A stretch of DNA of 31,487 nt from a virus: positions 1 to 31,487 of the IMG/VR virus record IMGVR_UViG_3300030430_001660. One strand, written 5' to 3'. A model generated the notes under the pieces. The model made no database searches. It was given only the letters and a program-made list of their open reading frames with translations, and was not told the DNA's origin. The position numbers and the translations under genes are program-made. The number at the start of each line of letters is the position of its first letter. The stretch's first letter is position 1. Positions 2,098 to 26,457 of this stretch are shown here, in pieces.

Positions 2098-3117
2098 ATG
2101 AGAACGATAAATCCTGTTGGTCTTGTTACAAGACTTAACAAAGCGGTTACTAAGAACCGACCTGTGATGATTTGGGGCAGCCCTGGTATTGGTAAATCTG
2201 ATATACCAAGGCAAGTCGCAGAATCTAGAGGTATCGGACTGTTAGACTTTCGTGCTAACTTGTTCGACCCAGTTGACGTGCGTGGCGTACCATACGTTAG
2301 GCAGATAAAAGATACCGGTAAAAGATTTACATCTTGGGCTGTACCAGATGTATTTCCAATCGCAGAACGCGATGGCGAACGTGGTATTTTGTTCATTGAC
2401 GAACTACCCGCTTCACCACCTGCAACGCAGAATGCGTTCTTGCAACTGATATTGGACAGAAGAGTCGGTGACTATGAACTACCAAGTGGTTGGACTATTG
2501 TTGCTGCTGGTAACAGACTCACTGATGGTGCGTCAGTTTATCAAATGACAAGTGCACTGCGTAACAGGTTTGCTCACTTTGAACTTGAGCCAACTTTGGA
2601 CGATTGGGTGACTTGGGCTCACCAAAACGATATCAATACAGATGTCATTGGTTTTATCCAGTATCGACCACAGTTGCTCAACAGTTTTGACGCTGATGAG
2701 TACGCTTTCCCAACTCCACGTACGTGGGCTATGGTGAGCAATCATATCGACAATACAACAGACGACGAAGAAGGTTTATTCTTTGATGTCGCTTCTTTGG
2801 TTGGCGATGGTCCAGCTGGTGAGTTTGTAGCATTCAAAGAGATTGCTAACAAACTGCCTAACATTGATGAGGTTATTCAAGACCCGTCAAAATACAAGAA
2901 AGATGATAATCCAGCTTTACTCTATGCTTTTGCTAACGCTCTTGCAGCTAGAGCAGATGATGACAAGATGGAGAGCATCATGAAACTTGCTAAGAAGATA
3001 CCACTTGAGTTCCAAGTTGTGCTCGTGCGTAGTTCGATTGCCGCAGGCGGTGACGATGTACGTAAGCACAATGATGTACGTAAGTGGGTTAAAGAAAATG
3101 CTAACGTTGTATTATAG
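2098..3117 (+). CDS. MoxR-like AAA+ ATPase
   Basis: 339 residues with a complete AAA+ core: Walker A GSPGIGKS at 27-34, Walker B ILFIDE at 97-102, sensor-1 Asn in AAGN at 136-139 and arginine-finger type residues in RNRFAH at about 155-158. The order and the ELPASPPATQNAFLQL stretch after Walker B are typical of the MoxR/CobS branch. Members usually act as chaperone-like remodelling ATPases with a von Willebrand factor A (VWA) partner, and such a partner is encoded two genes downstream. Related CobS-like ATPases occur in many marine phages. The target is unknown. It lies in a tightly packed operon and the next gene begins 8 nt after its stop. Confidence 0.9.
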   Translation: MRTINPVGLVTRLNKAVTKNRPVMIWGSPGIGKSDIPRQVAESRGIGLLDFRANLFDPVDVRGVPYVRQIKDTGKRFTSWAVPDVFPIAERDGERGILFIDELPASPPATQNAFLQLILDRRVGDYELPSGWTIVAAGNRLTDGASVYQMTSALRNRFAHFELEPTLDDWVTWAHQNDINTDVIGFIQYRPQLLNSFDADEYAFPTPRTWAMVSNHIDNTTDDEEGLFFDVASLVGDGPAGEFVAFKEIANKLPNIDEVIQDPSKYKKDDNPALLYAFANALAARADDDKMESIMKLAKKIPLEFQVVLVRSSIAAGGDDVRKHNDVRKWVKENANVVL

Positions 3118-3125
3118 GAGGATAT

Positions 3126-3809
3126 ATGAAAACAGTTAGATTGTCGGAGCAGCTTAAACGAGATATTCGTAGAAAAGCTGAAGAGAAGTTCGAAAAAGTT
3201 AATCCAAAGCAGACCTATCCAGAGGATGGGGCTGTTCTTTTGACGCGTTACAACCTTCAGGACAAAATCAACAAGACTACCAAAAGTTTCAAAGAGATTT
3301 GGCCTGATATGAAGATTGGCACGCGAAGTGTTGAACGATTGCGTATCAAGTCAAGTCTTATGGTTGATAAGGATGATGTATGGGACTCTGAGAAAGAGGC
3401 TTACGTTACGAAAAAAGTAGAGGATGAGTTTGAGTACACTTTACATGTGCCCGTTACTCAATTCCCAGACTTTTTGGTTGAGTACAGAGAGTTCTCACTT
3501 GCTGTACCAAATAACGATGAAACTTTTCTAGCTTGTTATCAAGTTGAAGTACACAACGAAGACTTAGACCGTAAGAGAAGAGCGTTCACCAACAACATTC
3601 AGAATGTTTTGGATAAGTTCCATACGCTTAACCAATTGCTCAAGGCAGACCCATCTCTCAAAGATTTGGTGCCCAGCGATAGGTTACAGAAAATGTATGA
3701 GAAGGACGAGCGTGGAGAACGAGCAAAGGAACAGCAAGAACTTGCAGATACAGAGCTACAAGATTTACGTGAAGTCTTACTTGAAGATAAATTACTTGGA
3801 GATGACTAA
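3126..3809 (+). CDS. Unknown phage protein, possibly Nmad5-like
   Basis: 227 residues with the strong ribosome site GGAGG at 3117-3121. The N-terminus (VRLSEQLKRDIRRKAEEKF) is a charged helix; the middle is mixed alpha/beta; the segment FHTLNQLLKADPSLKDLVP (about residues 165-183) resembles the C-terminal part of phage proteins placed in the putative nucleotide-modification-associated group Nmad5, from memory and not searched. The last 40 residues are a highly charged helix. The protein encoded at 5222-6112 shares the same FxTLxxxL...LVP feature. It sits between the MoxR ATPase and its VWA partner, so it may be a substrate or adaptor. Confidence 0.6.
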   Translation: MKTVRLSEQLKRDIRRKAEEKFEKVNPKQTYPEDGAVLLTRYNLQDKINKTTKSFKEIWPDMKIGTRSVERLRIKSSLMVDKDDVWDSEKEAYVTKKVEDEFEYTLHVPVTQFPDFLVEYREFSLAVPNNDETFLACYQVEVHNEDLDRKRRAFTNNIQNVLDKFHTLNQLLKADPSLKDLVPSDRLQKMYEKDERGERAKEQQELADTELQDLREVLLEDKLLGDD

Positions 3810-4918
3810 TGAATCAATTGTATATTAAAGCTAGGTCAAGACTTGTTCTTGACAATCCATTCTTTGGTACGCTTTGTCTACGGCTAAAACCAGTAGAGCG
3901 AGATGATATGCCAACCGGTGCAACCGATGGCGTGCACTTGTTCTACAACCCAAAGTGGTTCGAGAAACTTTCAGAGATACAGCGTATCGGTTTCTTGGCT
4001 CACGAGGTTATGCATGTTGTGCTATTGCACATCACACGTAGACAAGAGCGTGGTCCTGAGAAATGGAACGTAGCTTGTGACTATGCAATCAATAATTATC
4101 TCATTGCAGAAAATTTTATTTTGCCAGATGGTGGTCTTATAGATGAGCAGTACAACGACATGACTGCAGAGGCCATCTACAATCTATTACCTGAACCTCC
4201 AAAAGGTTGGGCCCAAATGGCATTGGATTCTGGCAAGTGTGGTGGCGTGCTCGACCACCCAGACCAAGATGGCACCGGTGGTACAGCCGGTGCTATTGAG
4301 GCTGAACTTACTGTCGCTATTAACCAAGCGGCAGAGAGTGCCAAAGCACACGGTAAACTTTCTGCAAACATGGAGAGTCTGATAACAGATATTGTTACGC
4401 CTAAGGTTGATTGGGCGTCAGTCTTGGCTAGGTTCATGAGAGCCAATGCTAAGTCTGATTTCACATGGATTAGACCAAACAGACGCTTTATTGCATCTGG
4501 TATGTATCTACCATCTTTGTGGAATCCAGCACTTGAAGAGATTGCTATTATTGCAGACACGTCGGGTTCTATTATCGATGATGTTCTTACTCAGTTTACT
4601 ACAGAAACATCTGCTATTTTGCGTGATTTGAATCCACAAAAGATTCATTTCTTGCAATGCGATGCAGAGGTCAACGAAGTTACTGAGTACACAAGAGAGT
4701 CGTTACCACTTAAAGTAACGTACAAAGGTAGAGGCGGAACTCGTTTCAGTCCAGCCTTTGATTACATTAATGAGCATTTGCCTCATATCAGTTGTGCTGT
4801 TTATTTGACTGATATGTGTGCAGATGACTTTGGCGATACTCCACCATACGATGTATTGTGGATATCAACAGAAAAAGACCGGACTGCACCATTTGGTGAA
4901 GTCGTACATATAAACTAG
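3809..4918 (+). CDS. Metallopeptidase-like/VWA protein, MoxR partner
   Basis: 369 residues in two parts. Residues about 1-130 resemble the DUF2201-type putative metallopeptidase region, with the zinc-site motif HEVMH at 65-69 and a later CDYAINN (90-96). Residues about 243-369 are VWA-like, with the metal-ion-dependent adhesion motif DTSGS at 250-254, a Thr in GRGGTRFSP and the third Asp site in LTDMCADDFG. This fusion is typically encoded beside MoxR-type ATPases. The VWA part probably docks a client onto the ATPase; whether the HExxH motif still cleaves peptides is not known. The start codon overlaps the previous stop by one base. Confidence 0.85.
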   Translation: MNQLYIKARSRLVLDNPFFGTLCLRLKPVERDDMPTGATDGVHLFYNPKWFEKLSEIQRIGFLAHEVMHVVLLHITRRQERGPEKWNVACDYAINNYLIAENFILPDGGLIDEQYNDMTAEAIYNLLPEPPKGWAQMALDSGKCGGVLDHPDQDGTGGTAGAIEAELTVAINQAAESAKAHGKLSANMESLITDIVTPKVDWASVLARFMRANAKSDFTWIRPNRRFIASGMYLPSLWNPALEEIAIIADTSGSIIDDVLTQFTTETSAILRDLNPQKIHFLQCDAEVNEVTEYTRESLPLKVTYKGRGGTRFSPAFDYINEHLPHISCAVYLTDMCADDFGDTPPYDVLWISTEKDRTAPFGEVVHIN

Positions 4919-5229: not shown

Positions 5230-6112
5230 TGTACAAATGTCCCAAACGTTGCGGGAACAAATGCTTTCTAATTATGGAAAGCAAGTAAGAGCGGCGTACG
5301 AGAATAAATCTGGAGTAGCACAAGTTGTTTCAGATATAAAGGATACAGTATCTGGTAAGGTACCTTTGATTAATGACTTTATATCTTTGAGTTCCGAAGC
5401 GGAAGCTTTGTTAAAAGATTTTAAGTACCAAGTAATTCAAAATATTGTTGGAGATAAAAGCAATGATTTGGCAAAATCAGAGGCTTTTTGGAAACGTAGT
5501 ATGTTTGATTCGTGGGGTGGTAAGCCTAATATTTTGAGCTTGAATCCTTCACATAAAATATATGCTGTTATCAATGACCAACGACCAATTGAAGAAAATC
5601 TTGAACATATTTTTGATTGGAACCCAAAGTATGAGTATTCAGATTATTATAAAACATCTGGCCATACTCATAACCCAGCGTCTGATAATTATGTAGATGG
5701 AGATATGTACTTCGAATACGAGTTTACTGAGCCTGTTTTGTTGCCGTTTACACTTGACGGTAGTATGAGTGATTATCAAGCTAAGGCTGATTACGCACCT
5801 CATATTGATATTGGTTTGGTAATATCTGACCCAGAAATGTATAATGTTCTCAAGCAAGTACCAGAAACTGATATGAAAGTTGCCGATGCAGTAAAGAAGA
5901 TGGAAGATTGTCTAATGCAGTTTTCTACACTGAAGAAGTTTCTTGATGAGTTTTCTGGTGGTATGGCCCTCGTTCCAGAGGAATACAAACAAAGACTTGC
6001 TAAGAAAGCACAACCTAAGAAACCAGCTAAGGTCAAACCTGCAGCTGTTATACCTGATGACATCAAAGAAGAGATGGCAGAGGTTGTGTTTGAGAACTCA
6101 TTACTAAAATAG
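5222..6112 (+). CDS. Unknown phage protein, related in part to the one at 3126
   Basis: 296 residues preceded by AAGGAGGTG. It starts with a helical MSQTLREQMLSNYGKQVRAAY segment, has a long middle region rich in aromatic and acidic residues, and a segment FSTLKKFLDEFSG...LVPEEYKQRL near residues 235-262 that parallels FHTLNQLLKADPSLKDLVP in the protein at 3126-3809. A Lys/Ala/Pro-rich linker (KKAQPKKPAKVKPAA) and a short acidic tail follow. By this shared feature I suspect both belong to the same loosely defined Nmad5-like group, but this is visual similarity only. The tail may be a flexible docking peptide. Confidence 0.65.
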   Translation: MASVQMSQTLREQMLSNYGKQVRAAYENKSGVAQVVSDIKDTVSGKVPLINDFISLSSEAEALLKDFKYQVIQNIVGDKSNDLAKSEAFWKRSMFDSWGGKPNILSLNPSHKIYAVINDQRPIEENLEHIFDWNPKYEYSDYYKTSGHTHNPASDNYVDGDMYFEYEFTEPVLLPFTLDGSMSDYQAKADYAPHIDIGLVISDPEMYNVLKQVPETDMKVADAVKKMEDCLMQFSTLKKFLDEFSGGMALVPEEYKQRLAKKAQPKKPAKVKPAAVIPDDIKEEMAEVVFENSLLK

Positions 6113-13396: not shown

Positions 13397-14737
13397 ATGA
13401 ATGATATACCTGAGCCTTATGCTCATCAAACTGAAACTACAAACTTCATTGTAGATAATCCAAAATGTATGATTACGTCTGACCCAGGCACTGGTAAAAC
13501 ACGTGCATGTCTAGATGCACATGTTATACTTGGAGGTAAGACATTAGTCTTGGCCCCACTTTCTATATTGGAAGCGGCCTGGGTTGAGGACATTAAGAAG
13601 TTTCAACCCAACATAAAGTATGGAGTAGCATATGCCAAAAACAGAGAAAAAATCTTCAAAGATGAAAGTCTCGAAATGGTCATTACTAATTTCGAAGCTG
13701 TCAACTTTTTACAAAAAAATACACAGTTCCTTGAAGAGTTCGATACACTCATTATTGATGAGTTCACCGCTTTCAAAAATAGAACTACTAAAAGGTCCAA
13801 AAATCTCAGAAAACTTATCTCATATTTTACTAATAGGATTGCCATGTCTGGTACTCCTAATAGTAATACTATTCTAGATATTTGGCACCCAGCACTCCTC
13901 ATCGATGATGGAGAGAGATTAGGTACGCGTTTCTTTGCGTATCGTAATCAAGTATGCACTCCACGATTCAATGGTTTTGCTAATGAGTGGATTGATAAAC
14001 CTGGTATAGAAGAAACAGTTGCAGATAAACTTTCTGATATATCTATTAGATTTGCACTGTCCGACTGTATAGATTTACCTGACAACGTTACACGAACCGT
14101 CAATACAAAACTTACACCAGCAGTGCAGCATATGTACGATACACTAGCTAATGATTCTGTTTTGTATACAAAATCTGGCACAGTAAACGCTATACACGCA
14201 GGTTCTCGTGTCAAAAAGCTTTTGCAGCTAGTTACGGGTGCCGTGTACGATGACGACAGTCTAGTCCAGTTCATACACCAAGAACGGTATGACATAGTTA
14301 TGACACTTATATCTCAACGAAAACACTCTCTAGTAGCATTCAACTGGCGACACGAAAAAGATGCACTAGTAGAATTAGCTAACAAAGAGGGTATATCGTA
14401 CGAAGTTATAGATGGGACTGTTCCAGCTGAACGGAGAAAAGATATCGTGCAAAGGTTCCAGGCTGGTCAGATACGTACGTTGTTTTGCCACCCACAGTCA
14501 GCATCACACGGACTTACTCTTACTAAGGCAACCACTATTATATGGTGTTCGCCCACTTATAACGCAGAACATTTTCAACAATTTAATCAGCGTATACATA
14601 GACCTGGACAAACAGAAAAGACCGAAACCATTCTTATACAAGCCAAGAAAACTTGGGAGCCTGAGGTGTATAAGAAACTAAATACTAAACTTGGGCGAAT
14701 GGAAAACTTATTACATATATTAAAGGAGATATCATGA
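13397..14737 (+). CDS. SNF2-like DNA helicase/translocase
   Basis: 446 residues, a complete superfamily 2 core: Walker A DPGTGKTR (29-36), motif Ia-type LVLAPLSILEAAW, motif II DEFT (121-124, in place of DEAH), motif III MSGTP (150-154) and motif VI QRIHRPGQ (398-405), which is typical of the SNF2 branch. Phage members are thought to help DNA replication, recombination or removal of bound proteins; the exact substrate is unknown. There is no extra nuclease domain. It is preceded by its own promoter and overlaps the next gene by four bases (ATGA). Confidence 0.9.
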   Translation: MNDIPEPYAHQTETTNFIVDNPKCMITSDPGTGKTRACLDAHVILGGKTLVLAPLSILEAAWVEDIKKFQPNIKYGVAYAKNREKIFKDESLEMVITNFEAVNFLQKNTQFLEEFDTLIIDEFTAFKNRTTKRSKNLRKLISYFTNRIAMSGTPNSNTILDIWHPALLIDDGERLGTRFFAYRNQVCTPRFNGFANEWIDKPGIEETVADKLSDISIRFALSDCIDLPDNVTRTVNTKLTPAVQHMYDTLANDSVLYTKSGTVNAIHAGSRVKKLLQLVTGAVYDDDSLVQFIHQERYDIVMTLISQRKHSLVAFNWRHEKDALVELANKEGISYEVIDGTVPAERRKDIVQRFQAGQIRTLFCHPQSASHGLTLTKATTIIWCSPTYNAEHFQQFNQRIHRPGQTEKTETILIQAKKTWEPEVYKKLNTKLGRMENLLHILKEIS

Positions 14738-17156: not shown

Positions 17157-17402
17157 TCATTTTTTGCCAGCTTTGCGATTTCGGGGGAAAGAACGATTTT
17201 TTGACTTATTTCTTACAGATAAGTTAGATGTTTTACTATTCATAGGATTTCCGTCTTTATGATGTACATCTTTACCGTCACCTTTTTTTACTTTGCCCTT
17301 TTTTTCTAACATACGACGTGCTTTGTTTCTCATAGCACGTCTTTTTATTTGGGCCGGTGTACCTTGGTAGTTGTCGTACTCTCGTCTGTAGTTTCTAGCC
17401 AT
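17157..17402 (-). CDS. Small HNH-like protein
   Basis: 81 highly basic residues. The segment KDVHHKDGNPMNSKTSNLSV followed by NRSFPRNRKAGKK matches small phage proteins annotated as HNH endonucleases, with the HH and N residues of that motif. The N-terminal half is a Lys/Arg-rich helix. It lacks a second metal-binding cysteine knuckle, so nuclease activity is uncertain; it may only bind DNA. It is the last gene of the late operon, its start overlapping the previous stop by one base. Confidence 0.7.
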   Translation of the reverse strand: MARNYRREYDNYQGTPAQIKRRAMRNKARRMLEKKGKVKKGDGKDVHHKDGNPMNSKTSNLSVRNKSKNRSFPRNRKAGKK

Positions 17403-17761
17403 TACCCTTGAAGTGGGTTTTTATCTAAATCTTTTAAATCTTCTTTAACTTCTGAGACAGTTTCTTTTAAGTCTGATAAAGATACCTTTATACCAGCTAT
17501 GTCAGACTTTATTTCTGCTACATCTGGAACTTGTATTTTATCTATTTCTTTTTCTAAAAACTCTACAGATGTTTCTATGGATGCAAAACGTTCTTCAATT
17601 ATTTTCATTTCATCCATATTCTCATCTACTCCACCTATCTTAGCTTCAAGATTTTCTAACCTGTTTACGTACTGAGCTCCTGTATACCCAAAGCCAGCTA
17701 AGGTTGACACTATACCCACTAATGCAATTATTTGTGTAGTTTTATTCTCTAACCAATTCAT
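17402..17761 (-). CDS. Membrane-anchored coiled-coil protein
   Basis: 119 residues from the ATG at 17761, chosen because GGAGG lies 5 nt upstream; a longer frame from 17773 has no such site. One membrane segment at about residues 8-30 (TTQIIALVGIVSTLAGFGY) is followed by a long coiled coil to about residue 110, an N-in, C-out single-pass layout. This shape resembles an inner-membrane spanin component, and it lies downstream of the holin, but no outer-membrane spanin partner is evident unless one of the secreted proteins upstream plays that role. The start lies 20 bases inside the end of the previous gene. Confidence 0.7.
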   Translation of the reverse strand: MNWLENKTTQIIALVGIVSTLAGFGYTGAQYVNRLENLEAKIGGVDENMDEMKIIEERFASIETSVEFLEKEIDKIQVPDVAEIKSDIAGIKVSLSDLKETVSEVKEDLKDLDKNPLQG

Positions 17762-19838
17762 ATGCACCTCCATTTAAATTTGGCTGTAGGTCCCTTAATT
17801 TTTGCAGAGTTTCTAAATTTTGCCCTGCCATTCTATAGAACCCTTCTATATTATCCACTAAAATGTTGTTTTCATAAATAGTTTTAGGTACATACCAATT
17901 AGTTGTATCTGTTAAGGTTACGCCATAGTACACGACAAAGTTTGGGTTGTACCCCATGTACGCTACTAAAGTAGCTTCATCTCCATACTCTCCTGTTTCT
18001 TCTTGTTCAGCTGTTATGTCGGCTTGGGCATTTTGTAGGTTTTGAGCAACAATATTCTCTACTAACTGTTCGCTCTCACTAGCACTTGTGTTAGTTGGCA
18101 ATGCATCATTTATTTGAGACTGTATGCTTTGCGTGCTTTCTGAGCCTGTGGATAAGTTACTTACAACCGAAGTTACTGTTGCTGTTTCACCACCGACCGT
18201 GGAACTAGATACGGTTGCAGTGGTAGAAGTGCCCATGTTTGTGTCCATGCTTAGTATTTGATTAGTTTGACTCACTGAAGATGAAAACTGTTCAGAGATA
18301 CTAGGCGAGTTACTTATGCTACCAGTCGCACTACTTGTCGTGCTTGTGCTAGCACCAGAAGAGCTGGACGTGTACGAATTGCTAGTTGCTGAAGCAACAG
18401 TAGACTTAACAACACGTAGATTTCTATTTTTGTTAGACTTTATCTCTCTTGTTTCGTCAACTTCTTCTAATAGTTCTTCTTCTACTATTTCGTCTTCTTC
18501 TTCTGCGAGTTCTTCTAGGGCTTCTTCTATAGGTTCTTCTTCTACTATTTGTTCTTCAAACCATTCTTCTAACTCTTCTCTAGTTTCAAAACGTTCAATT
18601 ATTTCTGGTTCTGGGGGTCTTTCTTCTATTCTTACAGTTTCTTGAAATATAAATTCGTCTATTAATGGGTTTTCTAATAGCAATGGCAAAGTAGGTAAAG
18701 GTTGTAATTCAAAGGGCTCTAGTTCTTCAAAAGCTATTAGCACCTCAAAATCATCAGGCCCTTGTCGTTCTGGTAAAAATATTAACTCTTCTATAGGCTC
18801 AAAGAACTCTGGTTCTTCTCTAAATGTAAACAAAGGCTCTTCAAATAAAAATAATTCCTCTATAAAGATTGGCTCGTTAAACATTTCAAAGTCTTCTTCT
18901 ATGCCGTAATCAAACTCTTCTTCGTGCCTAAAGAAAGCTACAGAGTCTTGTTGTCTATATCCAGGACAAAAAGGCCCATATTGAGGGTCTAAATCACATT
19001 GCAAATCATCATATGCTTCCCAGTAACCGCTGCAGTTTTCTGAATACAACGCATCCAAAGAACATTGTTGTGTTTGGTATGCAGCTGCATAACCTGGACA
19101 AAGAGAGTTGTTCAAAGGGTTAGAACAATCAATACCGTTTCCAGAGCCCACTCCATACAAACTACCACCACCCTCTAATAAAGTGTTAAAAGATGAGTTA
19201 TTCCAATTTGTGTTTACACAGTCACTAGAGTTTGTAGTCCCTGTATTACATTCATCGTAGAACAAATATGTGTATGACTGGTTAGAATTTGCCCCTATTT
19301 CACCTATTAATACATCGTGATTAATTATATCTAGTTCATCGTATCTATATTCAAAGGTGTGGTTTGGCCATAATATTATTTCAAAGCTATTATCAGAGTT
19401 GCGGTTATACTCTCTCATGTCATACCAACCGAATATCATTTTAGTATTATCACCCCAAGACTTCATACGAGAGTTGTTATCTCTTATTAAGTCAGTCCAA
19501 AAGGGCAACATAGTATAGGTATAATTTTTCGTGCTTAAAGGGTCTGGAGTGTAGTCGCCACAGTAATTATTAAAGTTGATATTACCTGTGCCTAGTCCAA
19601 AGTGAAGACAACCATTAGTAGCCATACGAGCTGAATCAAATGTTTGCCCATAGAAATTAAAGTCAAAAGATAAATCTATAGCGACAGATAATTGGTCATC
19701 TCCTACCTCGTAGGCTAATTCGCCTTCGAAATTACCTGCATTTTTTTGTAGTTGGTAAAGGTCTTGATTAGCTTCGTACACGTACTGGCCGGAGGCCGAA
19801 AACGATAACACGAGCAGTAAGGCTATTAAACACCTCAT
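17742..19838 (-). CDS. Large secreted protein with NIDO-like domain and acidic stretch
   Basis: 698 residues with a clear signal peptide (MRCLIALLLVLSFSASG). Residues about 50-200 resemble a nidogen-like (NIDO) domain (FDFNFYGQTFDSARMATNG, LPFWTDLI). Three Cys-containing repeats with CxGY lie at 238-294. About residues 305-465 are extremely acidic with alternating Phe/Leu/Pro, then a Ser/Thr-rich stretch, then a Tyr-rich end (AYMGYNPNFVVYYGVTLTDTT). It should be exported to the periplasm or surface by the host Sec system. The start overlaps the previous stop by four bases. The function is unknown: host-surface alteration, lysis or virion attachment are possibilities. Confidence 0.8.
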   Translation of the reverse strand: MRCLIALLLVLSFSASGQYVYEANQDLYQLQKNAGNFEGELAYEVGDDQLSVAIDLSFDFNFYGQTFDSARMATNGCLHFGLGTGNINFNNYCGDYTPDPLSTKNYTYTMLPFWTDLIRDNNSRMKSWGDNTKMIFGWYDMREYNRNSDNSFEIILWPNHTFEYRYDELDIINHDVLIGEIGANSNQSYTYLFYDECNTGTTNSSDCVNTNWNNSSFNTLLEGGGSLYGVGSGNGIDCSNPLNNSLCPGYAAAYQTQQCSLDALYSENCSGYWEAYDDLQCDLDPQYGPFCPGYRQQDSVAFFRHEEEFDYGIEEDFEMFNEPIFIEELFLFEEPLFTFREEPEFFEPIEELIFLPERQGPDDFEVLIAFEELEPFELQPLPTLPLLLENPLIDEFIFQETVRIEERPPEPEIIERFETREELEEWFEEQIVEEEPIEEALEELAEEEDEIVEEELLEEVDETREIKSNKNRNLRVVKSTVASATSNSYTSSSSGASTSTTSSATGSISNSPSISEQFSSSVSQTNQILSMDTNMGTSTTATVSSSTVGGETATVTSVVSNLSTGSESTQSIQSQINDALPTNTSASESEQLVENIVAQNLQNAQADITAEQEETGEYGDEATLVAYMGYNPNFVVYYGVTLTDTTNWYVPKTIYENNILVDNIEGFYRMAGQNLETLQKLRDLQPNLNGGAYELVRE

Positions 19839-20959
19839 GACTGAACATTTTTAAATTCTTTCTTACACTGCTTGTCAGTTTTTGTTTTTGTAGAAAATGT
19901 TTTTACTATTAAACCTGCTATATCTTTTTTAGCTTTTTTTCTAACAGGGTTGAGCTCGTTGGTGCAATCTTGCACGTATAGCTTTTCATCTATTACATAT
20001 TTATCTTGTTTCTTTTGTTTATATTCTTGGTAATCGGGTCTTAAGCTAGGATATTTTTCCCATTCTTTTTTAGCCTCTTCGCCTATCTTACCTTCGAATG
20101 GGCATGGGGTGCCTGCCATTTCCATAGCTTGAAAAACCCTTTCGTCTTGACATAACAAACCAACAGCCGCTACCTTCATGCCCATATCGTACACATATTT
20201 GGACAGTTTCAAGCGTTCACAATTCATATCTCTAACGGACTTGCCGCCTGAAAAACCAAACACTTGGCCTTGGTAGGCTCCACTGATTCCTGTGGTACAC
20301 AAATCTTGAGAGTAGCTCATGATACTAGGGGCTATGGCCGATGCTGGTGGGGCTTTTGTATTTATATTTTGTGTGATTACTTGTTCTGATTTACTTTCGT
20401 TGTAGTTTGTATTTGTATTATTGTTCGTGTTATTCGAAGTCGAATTGCTCTCATTAATGTTCGTGTTATTGGTATTTACATTTGAATTAGACTCACTGTA
20501 ATTGTTATTGGTATTCGTATTATTTGAAGTTGTATTATTGTTGACGTTTTGATTTACATTAGATGTAGAAGTTGAAACGCTAGTGTTAACGTTATTGTTG
20601 TTATTGGTGTTAACACTTGTAGATGTCGAAGTATTATTGTTGTTGTTAGTATTCGTGTTCGTGTTAACACTTGTATTTGTGTTCGTGGTGGTACTAACGT
20701 TAGTATTAGTATTGTTATTAGTGCTAGTGTTAACATTCGTATTCGTATTAGTATTGGTGTTTGTATTGGTATTTGTATTCGTATTGGTATTAGTATTAGT
20801 ATTGTTTGTGGTGGTATTGTTAGTCGTATTTAACGCTTCACAATATTGGGTTCCTGCATCACAAGTTCCCGTAGCACCACTATCTTGTGCTTGAACATTA
20901 CTAACTAATGTGAATCCTAATAGTAGGAAAAAAACTTTACTCTTTCTTACCGCTACCAT
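19835..20959 (-). CDS. Secreted protein with long Asn/Thr repeat
   Basis: 374 residues from ATG 20959, chosen because GGAG lies 6 nt upstream and it gives a clean signal peptide (MVAVRKSKVFFLLLGFTLVSNVQA); a longer frame to 20992 lacks both. About residues 40-200 are nearly only Asn and Thr with some Ser and Val, in Asn-Thr dipeptides. The C-terminal 170 residues form a Cys- and Lys-containing domain (DMGMKVAAVGLLCQDERVF, MEMAGTPCPF) that I recall in other marine phage proteins but cannot name. It overlaps the holin gene by 23 and the next gene by 4 bases. Surface or periplasmic function is inferred from the signal peptide. Confidence 0.8.
   Translation of the reverse strand: MVAVRKSKVFFLLLGFTLVSNVQAQDSGATGTCDAGTQYCEALNTTNNTTTNNTNTNTNTNTNTNTNTNTNTNTNVNTSTNNNTNTNVSTTTNTNTSVNTNTNTNNNNNTSTSTSVNTNNNNNVNTSVSTSTSNVNQNVNNNTTSNNTNTNNNYSESNSNVNTNNTNINESNSTSNNTNNNTNTNYNESKSEQVITQNINTKAPPASAIAPSIMSYSQDLCTTGISGAYQGQVFGFSGGKSVRDMNCERLKLSKYVYDMGMKVAAVGLLCQDERVFQAMEMAGTPCPFEGKIGEEAKKEWEKYPSLRPDYQEYKQKKQDKYVIDEKLYVQDCTNELNPVRKKAKKDIAGLIVKTFSTKTKTDKQCKKEFKNVQS
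20590..20830 (-). repeat. Hexanucleotide-period Asn-Thr coding repeat
   Basis: On the + strand the sequence reads as repeated GTATTN-type units (for example GTATTAGTATTGGT), six bases per Asn-Thr dipeptide. Third codon positions vary freely (all four Thr codons, both Asn codons), so the amino acid pattern is kept while the DNA is not a fresh tandem copy. Confidence 0.8.
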
Positions 20960-21416
20960 TGGAGGCTCCAAAATAGAATGATATAACAGCACTGGCTAAG
21001 CCTCCTAGATAGCCCAGCACCAAGTTAATAAGTGCCTCACTGTTTTGTTCTGGTGGCTGTAAAGTCACCAAGAAGATATAGCCTAAAAACCCGCCTAGTG
21101 TGGCTATACCCATTATTTTTGCGGTCCAATCACCGCTAAATCTGTTTCTTGCACTCTCTTTGTCTTGTGTTTCTAACCTAAACACATCCACTTCGAGTTC
21201 TTTCATTTGAAGTTCAAATGCTTGCTCTGCTTTTTTAAGTTCAAGCATCTGTTCTGGGGTAGCTGCACTAACTGCTTTTTGCAACGATTTTGGGTCGTTA
21301 GAACAACCTAATACCTCTGCAATCATATTAGCAGCCATGCCTCCCATTGGCCCACCTAAAGCGGTGCCTAAAGTAGGAGCTACCGCACCTACTACATTTT
21401 TTAATATATCCTTCAT
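20937..21416 (-). CDS. 3TM holin (GTA_holin_3TM type)
   Basis: 159 residues. The layout matches the 3TM holin family first described with gene transfer agents: an N-terminal hydrophobic Gly/Ala-rich segment (VVGAVAPTLGTALGGPMGG), a helical linker rich in Gln and Glu, the motif SARNRFSGDWTAKIMG, then two membrane segments (about residues 103-120 and 128-148) and a basic end. It would make the membrane hole that lets the lysozyme act. That enzyme is encoded about 4.6 kb upstream in the same operon, so lysis genes are split. The start overlaps the preceding stop (ATGA). Confidence 0.85.
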   Translation of the reverse strand: MKDILKNVVGAVAPTLGTALGGPMGGMAANMIAEVLGCSNDPKSLQKAVSAATPEQMLELKKAEQAFELQMKELEVDVFRLETQDKESARNRFSGDWTAKIMGIATLGGFLGYIFLVTLQPPEQNSEALINLVLGYLGGLASAVISFYFGASNGSGKKE

Positions 21417-26004: not shown

Positions 26005-26457
26005 TTATACAGTATTAAGAACTGATGCTTGTAGTTCTACGCTCCTTCTTCCTACTTGTTTAAACCACCTGCTGTCTTCCATTTCAGCAGCCATTTGTTC
26101 CCAATTATGTTCTCTACAAGCGGATAACATATTGCGAAACTTAGATAATCTCGTGCCACCTAAATTAAAACACATGTTTACTAGTACGTGTTGTATGTTT
26201 TCGGGCAATGCATAGAAGTCTTTCTCATCACCAAACACGTGAACAGTTTCTTTTAAATGTTTATCAAAGTCACTGTCGTAGTACATGTCTACTACTTCTT
26301 GGGACACTTTAGTGCCTATGTCACTTTTATACTCAGGGTCTTCTGGTTGGCATAAATGCCCTATACCTAATGTTTTATACCCTAAGCTATCTTCATATAT
26401 TTCTAAAATTTCACCTTCATGACGTTTTATTTCTGCTTTACATTTTTCAATGTCCAT
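26005..26457 (-). CDS. T4-type lysozyme (GH24 endolysin)
   Basis: 150 residues with AGGAGG before ATG. The catalytic triad is exactly spaced as in T4 lysozyme (Glu11, Asp20, Thr26): here Glu14 (KRHEGE), Asp23 (YEDS) and Thr29 (YKTLGIGH). The C-terminal part FNLGGTRLSKFRNML and SRWFKQVGRRSVELQ also fits the family. It cleaves the glycan strands of peptidoglycan at the end of infection. There is no signal peptide, so it needs a holin. A membrane-anchored XhlA-like protein is encoded just upstream in the same operon, and the 3TM holin further downstream. Confidence 0.95.
   Translation of the reverse strand: MDIEKCKAEIKRHEGEILEIYEDSLGYKTLGIGHLCQPEDPEYKSDIGTKVSQEVVDMYYDSDFDKHLKETVHVFGDEKDFYALPENIQHVLVNMCFNLGGTRLSKFRNMLSACREHNWEQMAAEMEDSRWFKQVGRRSVELQASVLNTV

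Follow-up and report, generated by a model that had tools for sequence, protein, structure and literature searches.

The gene B locus and its neighborhood

We analyzed a 31,487-nucleotide stretch of DNA from a marine phage (positions 1 to 31,487 of the IMG/VR virus record IMGVR_UViG_3300030430_001660; here named the window). The 698-residue open reading frame (ORF) that a preliminary description had placed at 17742 to 19838 is present and lies on the minus strand, while the plus strand contains many stops across the same interval. The encoded protein (here named B) starts with the predicted signal peptide MRCLIALLLVLSFSASG, followed by Q, as judged from visual inspection and a crude test. Its mature part harbors ten cysteines, namely, 77, 93, 197, and 207 and the pairs 238/247, 259/269, and 281/291, which form three repeats of about 22 residues each. 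Residues 297 to 470 consist of Asp plus Glu to 37% and contain the motifs FNEP, FEEP, REEP, FFEP, and EEEP, and Ser plus Thr make up 48% of residues 471 to 590. The three Cys repeats, the acidic Phe-Glu-Glu-Pro stretch, and the Ser/Thr linker of the preliminary description are all seen in the sequence. The following features were assigned to B:

17742 to 19838, minus strand: gene B, 698 amino acids (aa), predicted exported protein with a NIDO-like head (ORF, relatives, alignment, and model)
19785 to 19838, minus strand: predicted signal peptide, residues 1 to 18 (sequence; kept in relatives)
19134 to 19718, minus strand: NIDO-like beta-sandwich head, residues 41 to 235 (AF2, hhalign, and profile match to 8gl6_D)
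18951 to 19133, minus strand: three Cys repeats with two Cys each, residues 236 to 296 (sequence and alignment)
18429 to 18950, minus strand: acidic EEP/FEEP-rich stretch, residues 297 to 470, mostly of low pLDDT (composition and AF2)
18069 to 18428, minus strand: Ser/Thr-rich linker, residues 471 to 590 (composition)
17745 to 18068, minus strand: conserved C-terminal module, residues 591 to 698 (a helix, then WY..K.IY....DN..FY)

Gene B overlaps by 4 nucleotides (nt) with gene A and by 32 nt with gene C. Besides a predicted signal peptide, the A protein has extended repeats of Asn and Thr and a domain with four cysteines; conserved cysteines are found in A and B alike. The neighboring features are as follows:

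19835 to 20992, minus strand: gene A, predicted exported, Asn/Thr-rich; the likely start is a Met 11 codons in (20959)
20018 to 20353, minus strand: conserved four-Cys domain of A, residues 214 to 325, with a helical core modeled at pLDDT >90
17402 to 17773, minus strand: gene C, with a single N-terminal membrane segment and a coiled coil, ending in ...NPLQG
20937 to 21416, minus strand: holin-like protein (phrog_1544) directly upstream of A, with two C-terminal membrane-like segments
26005 to 26457, minus strand: lysozyme-type endolysin candidate in the gene run shared with B (Pfam/PHROGs-level matches)
17157 to 17402, minus strand: small HNH endonuclease gene (HNH_3, E = 1.4e-5), which ends the gene run just past C

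The preliminary description had noted two successive proteins with signal peptides after a holin. Both A and B are indeed predicted to be exported, but the arrangement comprises three linked genes rather than two; the upstream protein is holin-like by its two membrane-like segments, but phrog_1544 has no assigned function. In phage Mosig, the gene immediately preceding A matches GTA_holin_3TM slightly above the cut-off. The minus-strand run with B also includes tail tip, internal virion, and lysozyme genes, and this position among tail and lysis genes suggests that the cassette is late. Promoter-like sites occurred at chance level and terminator-like sites below it. Elsewhere in the window (2098 to 4918, plus strand), a MoxR-like AAA ATPase gene, a gene for a 227-aa protein, and a putative metallopeptidase/VWA-type gene, named by reading the sequence, follow each other, which is unusual for a phage.

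The A-B-C cassette in IMG/VR and in named phage records

Judged by sequence and gene order, B belongs to a cassette of three genes, A-B-C, in which it takes the middle place and which is common to very different aquatic phages. The cassette was defined by an A domain, an exported B, and a C with an NPL end, all on one strand, as found in the window. The NPL end, by which C was recognized, occurs within the last 14 residues of 14 of 2502 neighboring proteins. Two A queries against IMG/VR confirmed at least 578 of 600 and at least 572 of 600 candidate stretches among the matches listed, and three others confirmed 121 of 130, 335 of 341, and 127 of 131; at most 80 loci were retained per query, and A was found by script in 471 of 482 loci. 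Completeness was counted only where a locus extended at least 3.2 kb downstream, shorter loci being set aside, and the counts include near-identical contigs, with a few contigs standing in two sets. Among the matches listed for each A query, the cassette was complete in 50/50 loci (of 74; query led by the A of the window), 64/64 (of 80; Mosig A), 60/66 (of 80; A of locus L160), 44/53 (of 80; HTVC115 A), and, as defined, in just 9/52 (of 80; CRP-810 A, the most distant set). Furthermore, it was complete in 63 of 65 loci (of 71 chosen by B) and in five of the six isolates then counted. Based on longest ORFs, the gap between A and B was at most 20 nt in 173 of 225 non-redundant cassettes, and that between B and C was at most 20 nt in 189. 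At one locus (L034:6915-10235), a single 1106-aa ORF spans A and B, reflecting either a genuine fusion or an artifact of assembly, and at another (L043:3306-5530), the interval from A to C holds B as two separate ORFs of 307 and 379 aa.

Among 50,697 phage records, A was present in 11, and three other A queries yielded 11, 11, and 10 records. Eight of the A-carrying records have a named host, six of them SAR11 and two Roseobacter-group bacteria. The complete cassette was found in seven of the 11 records, i.e., in six SAR11 phages, including one member of the Kyanoviridae, and an uncultured member of the Autographiviridae: A is followed by B and then C in HTVC202P, HTVC023P, HTVC115P, HTVC033P, Mosig, Baldr, and MedDCM-OCT-S28-C10. 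The respective B proteins comprise 432 to 611 aa, with a head of a different kind and an acidic stretch. A small ORF separates A from B in Baldr, and the gene after B in HTVC115P is C-like without NPL, the NPL-ended C being the fourth gene after B. About 2.3 kb past this C, a gene annotated as toxin-activating lysine-acyltransferase lies in the same record (L086, 10249 onward). In CRP-810, CRP-207, and ct7L0027, the place of B is taken by another protein of roughly 190 to 260 aa (unannotated in ct7L0027), and C ends in NPL, NPL, and NPM, respectively. In ctXG6705, A is unannotated and is followed by a Cys-rich protein that has a stretch rich in Pro, Lys, and Glu (L486:4239-5345, annotated "transport protein tonB"); C was not seen in this record. 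B is annotated "putative carbohydrate binding domain containing protein" in HTVC033P and MedDCM-OCT-S28-C10. CBM_4_9 was rejected as an assignment for pelagiphage-type B heads, with matches below the cut-off in two B proteins and none in HTVC033P.

Relatives of B itself were encoded in 96 of 104 IMG/VR stretches matching the search pattern, and the best 80 of these 96 were retained. In an alignment of 66 members, D47, D48, N75, G76, C93, W114, and D116 are invariant, and Y21, C77, C197, C207, C247, C259, C269, C281, and C291 are nearly so; eight or nine cysteines and parts of the C terminus are kept throughout. The signal peptide is likewise conserved among relatives; its non-conservation had been named beforehand as one of the findings that would refute the preliminary interpretation. 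A regular expression for the B tail matched 76 of 76 window-clade, 50 of 52 L160-type, and three of five isolate proteins versus 10 of 798 controls, and none of the 51 Mosig-type, 33 HTVC115-type, and eight CRP-810-type B proteins; the tails outside the expression are linked by eye only, via HTVC023P and HTVC202P. Searches with B alone gave no match among Pfam and PDB sequences and none by tblastn in the 50,697 phage records, where the head yielded four chance-level rows at E values up to 10. Two weak PHROGs matches, phrog_36383 (E = 0.0026, on the acidic stretch) and phrog_13168 (E = 0.083), were attributed to composition, and a weak Pfam match to CPW_WPC in nine of the 66 members (best E = 0.0033) was taken as a chance resemblance of the Cys repeats.

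Remote kinship of the B head to NIDO domains

An AF2 model of B showed residues 40 to 235 as a beta-sandwich with a pLDDT of about 90 and the Cys repeats as helices. For the whole protein, the mean pLDDT was 61.9 and the pTM 0.40, with linker and tail mostly of low confidence. The NIDO-like domain of the preliminary description holds by remote homology, but none of the 66 B members reached the cut-off for Pfam NIDO (PF06119) at E = 0.01. A PF06119 search of the window record also gave no match but carries no information, as its 14 control genomes gave none either. The kinship was detected via a large Chloroflexi protein (L162), the one relative of B confirmed in the genome collection (one of 26 candidate stretches), which scores PF06119 at E = 3e-17. 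An hhalign comparison of the B head with four NIDO domains of this protein gave a probability of 98.8% (P = 1.2e-16, 137 columns), compared to 0.1 to 1.5% for three column-shuffled control profiles.

Furthermore, the B profile (positions 6 to 162) matched PDB chain 8gl6_D, labeled RemA, at E = 3e-11. We took this chain as the gliding-adhesin homolog of PMC10994853, whose reference list contains a title describing RemA as a surface lectin; according to passages of that paper, the trapped substrate is well resolved in its C-terminal domain only. The profile matches to the Chloroflexi NIDO domains and to 8gl6_D indicate that the kinship of the B head to NIDO domains is remote but real, and that the head is an extracellular adhesion-type domain by descent. 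Foldseek with the whole model against the PDB gave a best E value of 0.39, and the best VIA-align match (Z = 5.1, rmsd 4.0, 134 aligned residues) is too weak to name a function; the VIA-align matches were mostly sandwiches from sugar-active enzymes. In BFVD, B had three matches at E ≤ 0.001, the best being an uncharacterized protein of an uncultured phage. For the A model, VIA-align could align 13 chains (best Z = 2.8), and the BFVD matches under 0.001 were uncharacterized or unnamed proteins.

Predicted export and exchange of heads

In the 225 cassettes, a crude signal-peptide test was positive for 211 A and 214 B proteins but for only 62 of 798 neighboring proteins of at least 180 aa; the 11 failing B proteins mostly look signal-peptide-like by eye. 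It is very likely that the cassette exists and that A and B are exported. The net charge fraction of the most acidic 60-residue segment had a median of 0.38 for B and 0.12 for neighbors, with 0.47 for the B of the window, and 155 of the 225 B proteins reached the neighbors' 95th percentile of acidity.

The B heads are exchanged over a more constant base formed by A and the B tail, as indicated by pairs with similar A and B C termini but unmatched heads. Of the 5545 pairs whose A domains share at least 70% identity, 331 had no head match at E = 1 or better, and 317 of these 331, involving 132 loci, retained a related B C terminus. At E < 1e-3, heads were related in 4822 and C termini in 5489 of the 5545 pairs. 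For example, loci L170 and L171 have A domains with 97% identity and B tails with 76% identity, but different heads. Single-linkage clustering of heads placed 216 in one cluster, since low-complexity sequence joins heads, and pair counts were used instead.

Lysis genes and spanins near the cassette

We examined 178 non-redundant loci in which at least eight of ten neighbors were visible. By raw count, a lysis-type gene (endolysin, spanin, or holin-like) was located within five genes in 88 of the 178 and within two genes in 53; the labels rest on few clusters and miss weaker relatives, and the phrog_1544 cluster is holin-like only. Within five genes, a spanin was found in 42 loci and an endolysin in 60, and no recognized lysis gene was near the cassette in 90. 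By set, a lysis-type gene was near in 47/65 window-clade, 22/36 Mosig, 9/27 HTVC115, 8/40 L160, 1/7 CRP-810, and 1/3 isolate loci.

The cassette is thus often in a lysis neighborhood, yet it does not seem to replace the spanin there: at one locus (L008), A-B-C is followed by an Rz-like spanin (phrog_739, E = 8e-12) and an endolysin, and this coexistence, together with that in the 42 loci, argues that the cassette is not simply the spanin. C matched spanin PHROGs weakly (E = 0.018 and 0.022), and its assignment as an i-spanin was dropped because Rz genes coexist with the cassette. Positive charges favor opposite orientations of C in different sets. A crude scan detected no lipobox in A or B and no plausible o-spanin gene in the window, which is a fragment; the lone lipobox match (13948 to 14295, minus strand) was discarded as antisense inside the plus-strand gene 13397 to 14737. 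Upstream of the cassette at locus L160 are two similar gene pairs (3000 to 3607 and 5268 to 5977), in each of which a small lipoprotein-like gene comes after one for a membrane protein; the first member matched a spanin PHROG only at E = 0.0013.

Possible functions of the cassette

A protein with a type I signal peptide but without lipobox or barrel is directed to the periplasm by default, which makes action of A and B at the outer surface the less easy reading. We tentatively favor, at somewhat less than an even chance for the statement as a whole, that A-B-C bridges the periplasm from a membrane tether, carries an exchangeable adhesin head, and acts around lysis. A and B would reach the periplasm via their Sec signal peptides and form disulfides there, which fits the conserved cysteines. 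The B tail and A would dock on C, the membrane tether by its predicted segment, whose charges favor differing orientations. The extended linkers would give the adhesin-type head, NIDO-like in the window and carbohydrate-binding-like in pelagiphages, access to a wall or outer-membrane ligand that is specific to the host. The complex may thereby bridge or perturb the envelope at about the moment when the cell lyses, alongside holin and endolysin and any spanins that are present. The periplasmic default, the conserved cysteines, and C as a membrane tether favor this bridge. Further support comes from the signal-peptide-like starts, the recurrence and close packing of the three genes in phages of different families, the kinship and exchange of the heads, and the lysis-type genes nearby. 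Against it count the coexisting spanins, the 90 of 178 loci with no recognized lysis gene near (such a gene being near in just 8/40 L160 and 1/3 isolate loci), the differing charge patterns of C, the low AF2 confidence of linker and tail, and the 9/52 complete cassettes of the CRP-810 set.

Head swapping fits exclusion or receptor binding equally well as lysis. If the role is instead superinfection exclusion or masking of receptors, binding of the exported complex to the phage's own receptor or to an entry factor would keep the infected cell and its debris from taking up competitors or progeny, with heads differing as receptors differ. This is an unlikely explanation but a serious contender: it would account for the adhesin-type head, the predicted export, and the heads swapped over constant A, B tail, and C, and it stands close behind the bridge since such swapping is expected from a receptor arms race. 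The late-gene position and frequent lysis neighbors speak against it, as does the crude scan, which shows A and B without a lipobox or other route past the outer membrane. Moreover, the known exclusion proteins are mostly small and single. It is improbable that A and B build up in the periplasm and are freed at lysis to coat virions or debris and aid sticking to particles or cells; the adhesin and carbohydrate-binding-like heads, the latter annotated as carbohydrate binding in two of the named records, would suit a released coat, which however does not account for C, a membrane protein present in almost every cassette of the nearer sets.

Still less probable is a spanin-like system with C as the inner-membrane and A/B as the outer-membrane part. 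The membrane segment and coiled coil of C and the apparent lack of an o-spanin gene in the window fragment are consistent with it, but spanins coexist with the cassette elsewhere, A and B lack a lipobox, and the spanin matches of C are weak (E of about 0.02). Least probable of all, the N-terminal hydrophobic stretch of B might not be a working signal peptide, and B would then be a virion structural protein. B does share its gene run with tail genes, but most A and B proteins of the 225 cassettes have signal-peptide-like starts and the cysteines are conserved; the spread of the cassette over Kyanoviridae, Autographiviridae, and other SAR11 phages further disfavors a tail part.

Beyond the periplasmic bridge itself, we propose with similar caution that A-B-C is an undescribed trans-envelope apparatus of aquatic phages (T4-like, T7-like, and others of abundant oceanic bacteria) that is tethered to the membrane, spans the periplasm, and presents a swappable adhesin head to a host-specific ligand. 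Lysis accessory and exclusion are known kinds of phage function, but the module itself was not found described: titles and abstract starts in the open PMC literature held no description of the cassette, nor did passages of PMC11288001, PMC10504331, PMC10149686, PMC6811365, and PMC10994853, and PMC3861242 gave no term match. If the proposal is true, many aquatic phages, including those of SAR11 and Roseobacter bacteria, share a conserved exported module whose fixed order and swapped heads offer a handle on phage action at the envelope of these hosts. It also raises the question of whether the head decides lysis or exclusion in a host-specific manner.

Comparison with known systems

Several known systems share features with the cassette. 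Like TonB-like periplasm-spanning linkers, pelagiphage B proteins are extended and Glu/Pro-rich, then Lys-rich, and one B-position protein is annotated "tonB"; however, a Pfam scan of B proteins other than the "tonB" one revealed no TonB domain. Rz/Rz1 spanins are likewise envelope-directed and often neighboring, and C resembles them in its membrane segment and coiled coil, but the sequences of A and B do not mark them as lipoproteins, and the cassette coexists with spanins. The NIDO domain (PF06119) is related to the B head by the 137-column profile-profile match to the Chloroflexi domains, although the 66 B members lack a direct PF06119 match. The B profile also matches the N-terminal region of the gliding adhesin RemA/RemZ of Flavobacterium johnsoniae (E = 3e-11), which differs in being bacterial and exported by a type 9 system. 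In pelagiphage HTVC023P, gp45-gp46-gp48 (hypothetical proteins) differ from the cassette of the window in that the B head is not NIDO and a 51-aa gene separates B from C, but they share the gene order, signal peptides, acidic linker, A domain, and NPL end of C.
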